NCBI GenBank assembly: GCA_020622085.1
Contig: JAHRYM010000002.1
Span: 519,281 to 583,280, forward strand
DNA from: Paracoccaceae bacterium
GTDB lineage: Bacteria; Pseudomonadota; Alphaproteobacteria; Rhodobacterales; Rhodobacteraceae
Direction of reading: 5' to 3'
Length of the DNA: 64,000 nt
Shown here in pieces: positions 28,340 through 39,832 of the stretch; the first letter of the stretch is position 1; each line of letters begins with the position of its first letter. Made by a program: the position numbers and the translations under genes. The notes below the pieces were generated by a model. It had not been told where the DNA came from. It made no database searches and saw only the letters and a list, made by a program, of their open reading frames with translations.

Positions 28340-30637
28340 ATGTCCATCGCTTACGCTCATTCCGGAACGCAGTCCGATCGCAGTGACTGGCAAACCTTGT
28401 CCAGCCACCTTGCGCAGACCGCTTCTCTCGCCGCCGAACGCGCCTCTCCTTTCGCATTGACCGAGGCGAGCCGGCTGGCTGCCGCTTTCCATGACTTCGG
28501 CAAGAACGATCCGGCATTTGATCGGGTATTGCAGGGGAAAGGAGATCGCGTTGATCATTCGACGGCAGGTGGCAGGCTGTTGATCGACCGCGCCGACAGC
28601 AAGACCCGTTTTGCCGCTCAACTCCTTGCGCATACCATCCTCGGCCATCACGCCGGACTGCCCGACAGTACGGGAAGCGAGGCCTCGCAGTCTCGGCGGC
28701 TGGACGGGTTCAACGATCCGATCTCGGTCGAAGTGACGCGGGCTGCGGTCGTGGACCTCTTGCCTGCGGCTAGGGAGTTGGCCGCCAAATGCCGGAAGGA
28801 ACATCTTGGCTTTGACCTCTCGCTTGCGGGGCGGATGGTGTTTTCTGCTCTGGTCGATGCCGACTTTCGGGATACCGAGGCGTTCTATGGCCAGATGGAG
28901 TCCGGGGAACATGTCTGGCCTGGCCTGCAGGATATTCTACCCGGCCTACGTTCCGGCTTCGACCGAAAGATGGCAGGGTTTGCGAGCGGCGAGTTGAACC
29001 AGCTCCGCTCGGAAATCCTGCGGCACATCCGCGTCGGCGCCGACCTGCGCCCCGGCCTGTTCACACTTACCGTCCCGACCGGCGGCGGCAAGACCCTGGC
29101 CTCGATGGGCTTTGCGCTGGACCACGCGGCAAGGTATGGCCATCGCAGGATCATCTATGCAATCCCCTACACCTCAATCATCGACCAGACGGCCGAAACG
29201 TTCCGGAACCTGTTCCAGAACCTGGGCGATGTCGTGCTGGAGCATCATTCCGCCATCGACACTGAAGCCAGCACCGGGCCGAAGATCGTCAGAGAAGGCA
29301 GCACCCGTCTGTCCGAGCAGAAGGCGAAGCTGCGACTCGCCATGGAGGATTGGGCCGCCCCCATCGTTGTCACGACCAATGTTCAGCTTTTCGAAAGTCT
29401 GTTCGGCTCCCGGCCCTCGCGCTGCCGCAAACTGCACAACATCGCCGGTAGCGTGATCATACTGGATGAAGCGCAATGCCTTCCGCGTTCGCTTCTGGCA
29501 CCGACCCTGCGGATGATCGACGCGCTGGCCGCGCATTATGGCTGCACGGTGGTACTGTGTACGGCCACCCAGCCGGCCTTCAACAGCGCCCAATTGGATC
29601 GGAGCCGCAGGGGGAACGATGGCAAGCCACGGAAGATCGGTCTCGATCTGACCGGACGCGAACTGGCACCGGGCCCCGATGCGTTGGCTGAACGGCTTCG
29701 CCGGGCCAGGATCGTCGACGGCGGCACCATGGACGACGCGGCGCTGACTGTAGCCCTGCAGGAGACCCCGCAAGCCATGGTCATCGTCAACAGTCGCAAG
29801 CATGCACTTGCCCTGTATCGCGCTGTGGAGGACCAGCCGGGCGCGCTGCATCTGACCACCCGGCAGTACCCTGCCCATCGGCGCCAGATCATCGCGGACA
29901 TCAAGCGGCGCCTTGCGGAAGATGCTCCTTGTCGGTTGATCGCCACCAGCCTGATCGAGGCCGGGGTCGACCTATCCTTCCCGAAGGGCTGGCGTGCCGA
30001 GGCGGGTCTCGACAGCATCGTCCAGGCGGCAGGTCGGGTGAATCGGGAAGGCCGGTGGGATATTCAGACCAGCACGCTTACTGTCTTCACGCCCACCGAT
30101 CATGCGCCACCAGCCGAAATCCAGACCCTGGCGAAGACGATGCGCAGCACGCTTGCGCGGTTCGGGCCGGATGCGCTCCTCTCTCCCGCAGCCATCCGGC
30201 ACTGGTTTGAAGAAGTCTACTGGCGCGCCGGGGAAAGCCTTCTTGACCGGCATGCCATCGTCGAGGCTTTCCGCTTCGCACCGTTGACCGGCGACTTTGA
30301 CTTCGCCTATCGCTCGGTCGCCGAGAGTTATCGCATGGTCGAAAGCCCGCTCTTGCCGGTGATCATTCCGACCGAGGCCTCGACCGAGGCCATCCGCCAA
30401 CTGGGGGTAGAGCAGATCTCCTCGAGCAGGATCGCCCGGGCATTGCAGCCCTATGTCGTGCAGGTTCCGGCCCGTTCCCGGGAAATGCTGCGCATCAACG
30501 GCAAGGGCAGCTTCGTGTCAGCAGAAATACGGGGCGACCAGTTCTTTGTGCTCTCGGACCCAGGACTTTACCGGCAGAACATCGGCCTGTTCTGGGAAGG
30601 CGCGGATGAGTTGAGCGAGACCCAGGCCATGATCTGA
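28340..30637 (+). CDS. cas3: CRISPR-associated helicase/nuclease Cas3 (type I-C)
   Basis: HD motif AAAFHDFGKNDPAFDR, HTILGHHAG; helicase TVPTGGGKTLASM, VIILDEAQCLP, TSLIEAGVDLSFP. Confidence 0.95.
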   Translation: MSIAYAHSGTQSDRSDWQTLSSHLAQTASLAAERASPFALTEASRLAAAFHDFGKNDPAFDRVLQGKGDRVDHSTAGGRLLIDRADSKTRFAAQLLAHTILGHHAGLPDSTGSEASQSRRLDGFNDPISVEVTRAAVVDLLPAARELAAKCRKEHLGFDLSLAGRMVFSALVDADFRDTEAFYGQMESGEHVWPGLQDILPGLRSGFDRKMAGFASGELNQLRSEILRHIRVGADLRPGLFTLTVPTGGGKTLASMGFALDHAARYGHRRIIYAIPYTSIIDQTAETFRNLFQNLGDVVLEHHSAIDTEASTGPKIVREGSTRLSEQKAKLRLAMEDWAAPIVVTTNVQLFESLFGSRPSRCRKLHNIAGSVIILDEAQCLPRSLLAPTLRMIDALAAHYGCTVVLCTATQPAFNSAQLDRSRRGNDGKPRKIGLDLTGRELAPGPDALAERLRRARIVDGGTMDDAALTVALQETPQAMVIVNSRKHALALYRAVEDQPGALHLTTRQYPAHRRQIIADIKRRLAEDAPCRLIATSLIEAGVDLSFPKGWRAEAGLDSIVQAAGRVNREGRWDIQTSTLTVFTPTDHAPPAEIQTLAKTMRSTLARFGPDALLSPAAIRHWFEEVYWRAGESLLDRHAIVEAFRFAPLTGDFDFAYRSVAESYRMVESPLLPVIIPTEASTEAIRQLGVEQISSSRIARALQPYVVQVPARSREMLRINGKGSFVSAEIRGDQFFVLSDPGLYRQNIGLFWEGADELSETQAMI

Positions 30638-30638
30638 C

Positions 30639-30681
30639 GGCGCCCGACCGCAAAGGGGCCGGGCGCCTCCGGCTCGGAAAC
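30639..30681 (+). other. candidate degenerate CRISPR repeat (psi-repeat) downstream of cas3
   Basis: 8-bp stem GGCGCCCG/CGGGCGCC, then CGGCTCGGAAAC resembling the 11-nt array handle CGGATCGAAAC (1 substitution, 1 insertion). Confidence 0.4.
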
Positions 30682-30774
30682 TTCTTAGCCAATGTTTCTA
30701 TCCGCATAGCCCGAGGCCACGACCCGCGCTGATTTTAATGCTTTTGCCACAGCTGCCACAGCGCCCAAGAAGAA

Positions 30775-30788
30775 TAACCGCGCGGTTA
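30775..30788. promoter_or_regulatory. 14-bp perfect palindrome in the cas3-cas5c intergenic region (operator candidate)
   Basis: TAACCGCGCGGTTA. Confidence 0.45.
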
Positions 30789-30910
30789 CTTCGATACAAA
30801 AATTTAACTTCTTAACCAATGAAAAAGTGATTGCCAGGGCTTGCAACCCTGTGCAACACTTTCCGGGCCAGACTCACCCTCCGGTGGTCTGGCGCTGCTT
30901 CGAGGAAATC

Positions 30911-31609
30911 ATGTCCTACGGTATCCGATTGCATGCCCGGGGCCGCCACGCCCTTTTCACCCGACCGGAATTGAAAGTTGAGCGCGTCTCCTACGACGTG
31001 ATGCCTCCCTCGGCGGCGCGGGGTATCCTGGAGGCGATCCACTGGAAGCCTGCTATCCGCTGGGTGATCGACCGCATCCATGTGCTGGAGCCGATCCGTT
31101 TCCAGTCGATCCGCCGGAACGAGGTCGGGCACAAGGCGCCGGCCGGCAAGATCAGGCAGGCGATGAACCGGGGCGATCTGGCCGACCTTCAGATCCTGGT
31201 GGACGAGGACCGCCAGCAGCGCGCATCGACCGTCCTTGTGAACCCCGCCTATGTGATCGAGGCGCATTTCGTGCTGACCTCCCGCGCGGATGCCTCCGAC
31301 AGCGAAGGCAAGCATCTCGACATCTTCAATCGTCGCGCGGCCCGCGGCCAGTGCTTTCACCAGCCCTGCCTTGGCACCCGGGAATTCGCCGCCGACTTTG
31401 GCCTGATCGAACCCGGCACCCCGCTGCCCGACCGCGCCCCCGCGGCCGAAACCGCCGATCTGGGCTTCGGCACTCCGCGCGACCTGGGCTTCATGCTCTG
31501 GGACATAGACCACGGCAAGGCGTCCCGCCCCTCGCTTCTGTTCCGCGCGACCTTGCGCGACGGCGTGATGGAGGTGCCGCAACCCGGCAGCCCGGAGATC
31601 CGGCAATGA
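30911..31609 (+). CDS. cas5c: CRISPR-associated protein Cas5 (type I-C, crRNA-processing)
   Basis: MSYGIRLHARGRHALFTRPELKVERVSYDVMPPSAARGILEAIHWKPAIRW. Confidence 0.95.
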   Translation: MSYGIRLHARGRHALFTRPELKVERVSYDVMPPSAARGILEAIHWKPAIRWVIDRIHVLEPIRFQSIRRNEVGHKAPAGKIRQAMNRGDLADLQILVDEDRQQRASTVLVNPAYVIEAHFVLTSRADASDSEGKHLDIFNRRAARGQCFHQPCLGTREFAADFGLIEPGTPLPDRAPAAETADLGFGTPRDLGFMLWDIDHGKASRPSLLFRATLRDGVMEVPQPGSPEIRQ

Positions 31610-36526: not shown

Positions 36527-39500
36527 GTCGCCCCCACCCGGGGGCGCGGATCGAAACCTGACACGTCGGCGTAGCGGAACATCCGGTCGCCGGTCGCCCC
36601 CACCCGGGGGCGCGGATCGAAACGCGCGGACGGCCCGGCAGGGTCACATCCAGCCATTGTCGCCCCCACCCGGGGGCGCGGATCGAAACCTGCCGTATTC
36701 GGCGTTCGCCAGATTTCAGGGCATGTCGCCCCCACCCGGGGGCGCGGATCGAAACCATATCCAGCCCGGTGTCGAAGTCGCGTGCAAGCAGTCGCCCCCA
36801 CCCGGGGGCGCGGATCGAAACGGAGCAAGGTCGCGGTGCTGTCGGTGCCCGAATGTCGCCCCCACCCGGGGGCGCGGATCGAAACTTTGGCTGATCCGTG
36901 AGTGGGCTGACCGCTATGGTCGCCCCCACCCGGGGGCGCGGATCGAAACGCTTGATCTGGCGCGGTCGCTGGCGGGCGATGCGGTCGCCCCCACCCGGGG
37001 GCGCGGATCGAAACTGTCACTCCTTGCACCAAGGGATAAATTTACGCGTCGCCCCCACCCGGGGGCGCGGATCGAAACTGCTATTTCCAGCGGGCCGGGT
37101 ATGAAGGCTTTGGTCGCCCCCACCCGGGGGCGCGGATCGAAACACGCCATATCCTGCGATTGTGGCTTGACAGTCCCGGTCGCCCCCACCCGGGGGCGCG
37201 GATCGAAACGCGAAGCTGCGTGAGCAATATAAAGGCTGGTCGGTCGCCCCCACCCGGGGGCGCGGATCGAAACCGGCGGCTGACCCACATGATGCGGCTC
37301 AATCAAGAGTCGCCCCCACCCGGGGGCGCGGATCGAAACAAGCAGGGCGTCACAAAGGCGCGCGCCGGGCAATGTCGCCCCCACCCGGGGGCGCGGATCG
37401 AAACTGGGATTTGACTCGGCGGCAATGGGACGTGATTGGGTCGCCCCCACCCGGGGGCGCGGATCGAAACCGGTTCTGGCTGGTTTGGCTGCGGCCATCG
37501 CGGGTCGCCCCCACCCGGGGGCGCGGATCGAAACTGGGCCGCTGGCATGCGCTGCGCGCCGCCGGGGGGTCGCCCCCACCCGGGGGCGCGGATCGAAACC
37601 TGGCTGTAGTCGCGCAGGAACACCCGCCCCGGTCGCCCCCACCCGGGGGCGCGGATCGAAACGTGACCAACATTCGCACCCGCTTGGGGCGATCTGGTCG
37701 CCCCCACCCGGGGGCGCGGATCGAAACATTGTAACTACGAATAGTGACAGGCATGGTGCGGTCGCCCCCACCCGGGGGCGCGGATCGAAACGTCCGGTCG
37801 ATGGTCATGTTACCGAACTCGCCTGGTCGCCCCCACCCGGGGGCGCGGATCGAAACGACAGCGATGCCCGCATGGCGACCGCTGGCCAGGTCGCCCCCAC
37901 CCGGGGGCGCGGATCGAAACATGCGGTGGGCGGTGTGACGCGGGCACTTTCGTCGTCGCCCCCACCCGGGGGCGCGGATCGAAACGACTGGATCAGCCCC
38001 TTGTCGCCATGCACCTGGCGGTCGCCCCCACCCGGGGGCGCGGATCGAAACAGTTATTTCCAGCGGGCCGGGTATGAAGGCTTTGGTCGCCCCCACCCGG
38101 GGGCGCGGATCGAAACTGGCGCGGGAGAGCACTGTGTTTGGCTATTCAGAGGTCGCCCCCACCCGGGGGCGCGGATCGAAACTGCGACTGGCCGGGTGGT
38201 CCCTATCCGCAAGGGCGGTCGCCCCCACCCGGGGGCGCGGATCGAAACTGTCGGTTGACCGAAGTCGGCTGCACCCTGTCCTGTCGCCCCCACCCGGGGG
38301 CGCGGATCGAAACAGGTGGCCGATGGGTCGGCGGAAATCAATTGTGGGGATAGTCGCCCCCACCCGGGGGCGCGGATCGAAACAGGTGTTTCTGCGGACG
38401 TTTCTTCGGGATTTGGAAGTCGCCCCCACCCGGGGGCGCGGATCGAAACGGCGTAAAGCCCGGTCCAAGGCGCTCGCGCAACGGTCGCCCCCACCCGGGG
38501 GCGCGGATCGAAACCTGACCAGTGATCTGAAACTTTACCGCTGGACCGGTCGCCCCCACCCGGGGGCGCGGATCGAAACAGCCTGAAGGCCCAATAATGA
38601 TCGTTTTCTATGACGTCGCCCCCACCCGGGGGCGCGGATCGAAACATCTTCGCGGCCCGGATGCTTAAGGACATGGCGCCGTCGCCCCCACCCGGGGGCG
38701 CGGATCGAAACTGGGATTTGACGCGGCGGCAATGGGACGTGATTGGGTCGCCCCCACCCGGGGGCGCGGATCGAAACTCCCTAGACGGGTTCGGTGCGCT
38801 GGCGCGCATAACGTCGCCCCCACCCGGGGGCGCGGATCGAAACATATTTTTCATCGGCCAACCTCAGATAGATGTGGGGTCGCCCCCACCCGGGGGCGCG
38901 GATCGAAACGCGCTCCATGCGCGCCCTCATGCGCGGACGCCCGGTCGCCCCCACCCGGGGGCGCGGATCGAAACGGGTGCTAGGCAACCGCCAATGAGGG
39001 CGGGGGGAAGTCGCCCCCACCCGGGGGCGCGGATCGAAACGCGTATCTTATGAAATACGCTCTCAAAGAGGCGTGTCGCCCCCACCCGGGGGCGCGGATC
39101 GAAACCGATAACCCGCCGACGGCAGGTCGAACGCCCGAAGGTCGCCCCCACCCGGGGGCGCGGATCGAAACCGGTCGATGGTTTTCGGGATGGTGAAACG
39201 CAAGAGTCGCCCCCACCCGGGGGCGCGGATCGAAACGGCAAGAAAAAGGCCAAGGCACCTGGCGTTGATTGTCGCCCCCACCCGGGGGCGCGGATCGAAA
39301 CTCGGCTCCCGGCTACCTTTAAGGCGGCGGCGGATAGTCGCCCCCACCCGGGGGCGCGGATCGAAACCACGGCAACCGGGCCGATTATTGGCTGGGGAAA
39401 AGTCGCCCCCACCCGGGGGCGCGGATCGAAACCGCAGCACGGAACGTATTGGAAGGCGCTGACGAAGGTCGCCCCCACCCGGGGGCGCGGATCGAAACTG

Positions 39501-39832
39501 ACCCGCCTTTCCATCGGGCACGACATACGATTTCACCGGGTCGCCCCCACCCGGGGGCGCGGATCGAAACTGACCCTTCGCGCCTCGACCCGCGACATGC
39601 AGCGGTCGCCCCCACCCGGGGGCGCGGATCGAAACCAGCAGGCCGGTGTCATTGGTGATGCCGGGCCGGGTCGCCCCCACCCGGGGGCGCGGATCGAAAC
39701 TGGACGACCTCAACCTTGTCCGGATCAAGAAAATCGTCGCCCCCACCCGGGGGCGCGGATCGAAACACAAGCGCCTTGACCACGAGCGTGGCGAAGTAGT
39801 CGTCGCCCCCACCCGGGGGCGCGGATCGAAAC
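36527..39832 (+). CRISPR. type I-C CRISPR array, 51 intact 31-nt repeats GTCGCCCCCACCCGGGGGCGCGGATCGAAAC, spacers mostly 32-35 nt
   Basis: Manual count of repeat starts from 36527 to 39802; period about 64-66 nt. Confidence 0.98.

Follow-up and report, generated by a model that had tools for sequence, protein, structure and literature searches.

A predicted crRNA-like guide and its PAM-flanked partial target in the cas3–cas5c gap of a type I-C CRISPR–Cas locus

The question raised by this type I-C CRISPR–Cas locus is what the 273 bp between cas3 and cas5c encode, and what a short sequence duplicated within them might do. The window, i.e. the whole 64,000-nucleotide stretch of Paracoccaceae bacterium DNA analysed here, holds a complete cas gene set of type I-C, a subtype that is very common and has no cas6. 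On the plus strand, cas3 (28340-30637) forms the upstream border of the gap with its stop ending at 30637, and cas5c (30911-31609; TIGR01876, E 4.8e-44), starting at 30911, is the first gene past the gap and of the operon cas5c-cas8c-cas7-cas4-cas1-cas2. The CRISPR array lies at 36527-39832 and has the repeat GTCGCCCCCACCCGGGGGCGCGGATCGAAAC. Two of its spacers, at 37374/38681 and 37048/38021, are each present twice with one or few changes between the copies, from which part of the array seems to have been duplicated. Comparing the array spacers with phage records, for a PAM readout from protospacers, gave no matches; an Rfam scan gave no match at Rfam thresholds, and a plasmid search returned no DNA relative of the gap.

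The duplicated element is a 16-mer with copies AACTTCTTAGCCAATG at 30679-30694 and AACTTCTTAACCAATG at 30806-30821, which are identical at 15 of 16 positions. When up to three mismatches are allowed, these two copies are the only occurrences in the 64 kb (0.10 expected), and the best direct-repeat score in the gap is 13, whereas dinucleotide shuffles average 7.7 and 2 of 400 attained 13. The duplication is beyond chance. A previous, sequence-only reading had interpreted it as a CreA/CreR-like type I-C unit on the plus strand, in which the GC stem GGCGCCCG (30639-30646)/CGGGCGCC (30660-30667) served as the repeat of the guide and was followed by a handle, CGGCTCGGAAAC (30670-30681). A string check found every string of that reading in its place, and the class of element that it proposed, a degenerate repeat-spacer with a seed match nearby, is well supported by our analysis, while its strand, handle and register had to be replaced: the plus-strand handle has 4 mismatches in 12 positions without gaps and is not conserved in relatives.

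Read on the minus strand, the gap contains a degenerate type I-C repeat, psiR1 (GTCGTGGCCTCGGGCTATGCGGATAGAAAC; 30694-30723), that is predicted to fold like the array repeat. The 5' handle, CGGATAGAAAC, makes up its final 11 nt and is one change away from the array counterpart CGGATCGAAAC; over 12 nt, the handle GCGGATAGAAAC at 30694-30705 has a single mismatch, and shuffling the gap 5000 times gave a match as good as this one three times. The dot-bracket shape of psiR1 is the same as that of the array repeat, a 7-bp stem with one closing pair, with several stem bases differing. Next on the minus strand is the guide, psiS (30668-30693), consisting of ATTGGCTAAGAAGTT at positions 1-15 and the unmatched tail TCCGAGCCGGA, such that the strand reads GTCGTGGCCTCGGGCTATGCGGATAGAAAC directly joined to ATTGGCTAAGAAGTTTCCGAGCC and then a GC-rich hairpin (30639-30667; 11-bp stem in the minus-strand fold). 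The hairpin thus sits 3' of the guide instead of being its repeat; it is a candidate psiR2-like 3' handle or terminator, and other relatives with minus-strand guides have a hairpin at the same place, its sequence not being conserved.

The target seed ATTGGTTAAGAAGTT (30806-30820, minus strand) matches guide positions 1-5 and 7-15, i.e. 14 of 15 bases with the sole mismatch at position 6 (30815 vs 30688), and pairing stops after 15. It lies 127 bp from the guide in the window and is flanked by TTC (30821-30823, minus strand), the exact type I-C PAM as demonstrated in Xanthomonas (PMC8406640). The weakness previously conceded for this element, AAC in place of TTC, is thereby removed with no shift of register. 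Because AAC and not TTC precedes the guide at its own locus, the guide is not expected to target its own gene. The exact seed pattern TTCATTGGNTAAGA occurs once in the 3.62-Mb genome. Position 6 is the base that type I effectors ignore. Being degenerate, single and far from the array, with pairing over only ~15 nt, psiR1 is distinct from a canonical CRISPR array unit.

As a further test of this arrangement, we compared 92 distinct gaps from Cas5c relatives, drawn from named genomes and from samples taken at the family, order, class and phylum levels, and counted a pair wherever a handle-like site accompanied a site next to TTC that agreed with guide positions 1-5 and 7-11, tolerating no more than one error. 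An equivalent guide/target pair with a locus-specific sequence is present in 22 of the 92 gaps; when guides were instead matched to the gaps of other loci, 4 of 1618 swaps succeeded. When any triplet could precede the target, all loci together gave 35 pairs, and TTC was the triplet in 27 of them. Because a scan in which position 6 is free biases the count at that position (~75% expected), we relied on the count with one mismatch allowed anywhere in positions 1-11, in which, among 18 loci, the mismatch fell at position 6 in 14 and at position 7 in one, and three were perfect. Position 12 is likewise free in 16 of the 22 loci. In these sequence comparisons, the predicted freedom at positions 6 and 12 in type I-C gaps follows the rule that mutagenesis established for CreA in Halobacterium hubeiense, with its seed at positions 1-5 and 7-11, dispensable positions 6 and 12 and TTC PAM (PMC8501985). 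We conclude that comparison between loci establishes the predicted guide/target design. The check that handle and match should co-vary across related gaps, which the previous reading had put forward, came out in favor of the minus-strand arrangement and against the plus-strand handle.

The same comparison bears on the repeat and on the strand. Across 21 loci the stem arms of psiR1 pair at 117 of 126 positions, and arms swapped between loci averaged 84 and reached 117 in none of 5000 trials; we used this arm-swap test in place of a covariance model because the length-variable stem was misaligned by MAFFT. Because related loci place the constant part of the handle after the first copy, as TTTCTATCC or TTTCGATCC (on the opposite strand, GGATAGAAA or GGATCGAAA), the guide strand is predicted to be the minus strand. 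Counting against the functional reading, we found no near relative sharing this guide in which purifying selection could be seen: the locus with the nearest cas5c (L096, 91%) has neither cas3 nor a guide upstream, and the one other genome examined in the genus is without cas5c.

The closest described systems share parts of this architecture. Like CreA of the type I-B haloarchaeal CreTA, the window has a degenerate repeat and a spacer-like guide within the cas locus, with seed positions 1-5 and 7-11, a TTC PAM, free positions 6 and 12 and a site in a nearby promoter region, which in the window is a predicted one (PMC8501985, PMC9458426). Unlike that system, it is of type I-C without cas6, so that psiR1 would presumably be cut by Cas5c, no toxin is evident in the window, and the ORFs of type I-C relatives comprise 26-34 aa rather than being tiny tRNA-trapping ORFs (PMC8501985, PMC9458426). 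The type I-F CreTA of Acinetobacter likewise occupies the space from cas3 to the first effector gene with a PAM-flanked target nearby, but belongs to another subtype, has the PAM CC and has a characterised toxin RNA (PMC10097628). With CreR of types I-B, I-E and V-A, the window shares a (here predicted) crRNA-like RNA with no evident toxin and a partial match ahead of cas genes, and differs in having a guide antisense to the cas operon (PMC13131331, PMC12737573). Specifically, as in CreR, a degenerate repeat carries an effector-compatible handle (11/12, array-like fold), and a seed-limited match with its PAM is close to cas genes (TTC, 14/15, mismatch at position 6); as in CreTA, a guide accompanies a PAM-flanked partial target, whereas a toxin gene under the target promoter is not evident in the window and has candidate ORFs in relatives.

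Based on these comparisons, we suggest that the minus strand of the gap would give rise to a small crRNA-like RNA, that Cas5c would cut psiR1 and the RNA would be loaded into the type I-C Cascade, and that the guide would pair over ~15 nt with the TTC-flanked site 127 bp away, where Cascade would bind without cutting and block transcription. Because type I-C interference in Xanthomonas needed 27 nt of pairing (PMC8406640), binding without cleavage is expected from a pairing of ~15 nt. The output that we favor would be autorepression of cas5c-cas8c-cas7-cas4-cas1-cas2, possibly together with repression of a minus-strand promoter feeding the guide. It is likely that the window holds a functional Cascade-guided repressor, and a toxin-less crRNA-like guide of the CreA/CreR kind that autorepresses the cas5c operon is, with good probability, the best explanation overall; given a functional repressor, the case for the cas5c operon as its main output is balanced or tips slightly in favor.

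The predicted promoters around the target are relevant to this output. A candidate cas5c-ward promoter, TTGCCA-18-AACACT (30831-30860, plus strand), has its -35 starting 7 nt past the PAM, and the target lies ~90 nt upstream of cas5c. The proximal cas5c promoter of most close relatives is missing in the window; where those relatives have its -10, the cas5c leader here has a hairpin, GCCAGAC/GTCTGGC (30867-30893). A TTG at 7 nt from the PAM also occurs in L106, L108, L016, L023 and L065, and the first two of these belong to a Tistrella-type group (L106 to L108) in which the order along the locus is target, promoter, guide, cas5c (the coordinates of L107 match Tistrella mobilis NC_017958); in L106 and L108 we saw no ORF beside guide and target as in other relatives. 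Because the proximal promoter is missing and TTGCCA lies 7 nt from the PAM, because this spacing equals that in the toxin-less L106 and L108, and because the stretch from target to guide in the window contains no SD-led mini-ORF, by an ORF test that is blind to small toxin RNAs and leaderless peptides, we favor the cas5c operon as the output, and its promoter, named as the target from the outset, is a plausible one. Against this, transcription of the window guide would lead away from cas5c, which is not the case at the Tistrella-type loci, and the cas5c-ward promoter is weak, with a poor -10 and a score reached by 41% of whole-gap shuffles (not above chance) and by 1.7% of those for the 90 bp adjoining cas5c. 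The better-scoring predicted promoters near the target face away from cas5c: TTGTAT-17-TATTCT (30771-30799, minus strand), just past the target and directed toward psiR1, and the candidate guide promoter GTGGCA-16-TAAAAT (30732-30759, minus strand), whose -10 ends ~9 nt before psiR1, both score 10.7, a value that the best promoter attains in 9% of shuffles. A perfect 14-bp palindrome, TAACCGCGCGGTTA (30775-30788), is situated in the spacer of the former and is possibly an operator.

These minus-strand promoters lead to the alternative that survives best, namely a CreTA module whose guide would repress a minus-strand promoter; in relatives that promoter would drive a small candidate toxin gene, and here the toxin would have been lost or would persist as an atypical RNA or leaderless peptide. 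The loci with minus-strand guides (L016, L023, L025, L041, L053, L065 and, more weakly, L027 and L063) have the order target, small ORF, psiR1, hairpin and cas3 end, with an ORF of 26-32 codons, e.g. MKRRYYAIRLKLGRFTIALELDLEPP, that ends 26-37 nt ahead of the handle motif. Other small ORFs are found at plus-guide loci, e.g. MRVFPPKPSRMLEIGLECLALALRLVLKLLP (L002) and MRLPPLKEPEFWSNVAIITVYVLVKLVRLCNNP (L062). Three small ORFs of relatives had no matches in Pfam; by position, the ORFs beside guide and target in most relatives are candidate creT toxins. Orientation and order in the window are those of the minus-guide relatives, a candidate promoter on the minus strand comes after the target, and the target-to-guide distance is 127 vs 183-219 in the relatives, a shortfall of about the size of their ORFs. 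Because of this distance and the lack of an SD-led ORF, toxin loss is plausible. The lack of such an ORF also argues against a toxin module in the window, and global pairwise alignments with the minus-guide relatives did not exceed shuffles and so do not demonstrate a deletion. Autorepression of the cas5c operon as in CreR is favored over a CreTA with lost or hidden toxin, which we regard as possible but unlikely.

A decayed CreA/CreR unit that is now functionless would agree with the absence of a conserved toxin and of a relative with the same guide; we consider it a good deal less probable still, because decay would not spare seed, PAM, handle and stem together, and here each of them is intact. 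That the 16-mer pair represents operators of a DNA-binding regulator, to which the palindrome in the same region might point, is very improbable: the pairs of relatives differ in sequence from locus to locus yet keep handle, PAM and position-6 freedom, whereas a protein operator would retain its sequence. Least credible of all is the plus-strand guide first suggested (TTCTTAGCC behind the handle CGGCTCGGAAAC), whose strings do exist but which combines a mismatched and unconserved handle with AAC where a TTC PAM is needed and a mismatch at position 7.

The autorepressing guide that we prefer for the window is one of several contents of this gap. On a cas5c tree the kinds of module are scattered (35 changes vs 36.6 by chance), suggesting frequent exchange or loss. 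In L035, L047, L054, L062, L080 and L122, a plus-strand guide lies within a long inverted repeat, and the 3' arm of this repeat spans the cas5c ribosome-binding site (in L122, GGGCTCACTCC ... GGAGTGAGCCC before ATG), and cleavage of psiR1 by Cas5c might alter access to that site in such gaps. In L015, L024, L029, L033, L045, L056, L057 and L099, a conserved ORF of ~100 aa with a motif like NGKIYVGSDLTD takes the place of the guide module; the L056 copy has an in-frame stop as read, the L015 copy had no Pfam or PADLOC match, and identification of this ORF as a GIY-YIG protein was not supported by Pfam. We find it reasonably probable that Cascade-guarded modules are exchanged at the cas3–cas5c gap in alphaproteobacterial type I-C loci, among them guides in either orientation with small-ORF toxins of several unrelated kinds as well as autorepressors lacking a toxin, with Cas5c processing replacing Cas6.

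CreR has been reviewed for types I-B, I-E and V-A, type I-C not being named there (PMC13131331, PMC12737573), and the earlier creTA genes all surround cas6 (PMC10097628). Relative to these reviews and to the type I-B and I-F CreTA papers, a type I-C guide is provisionally new. If this arrangement holds, RNA-guided self-regulation or addiction would be independent of Cas6, Cas5c would process regulatory guides too, and type I-C loci may be able to detect anti-CRISPR proteins or the load of crRNAs. The freedom at positions 6 and 12 across unrelated guides would offer a simple rule for finding further such guides.
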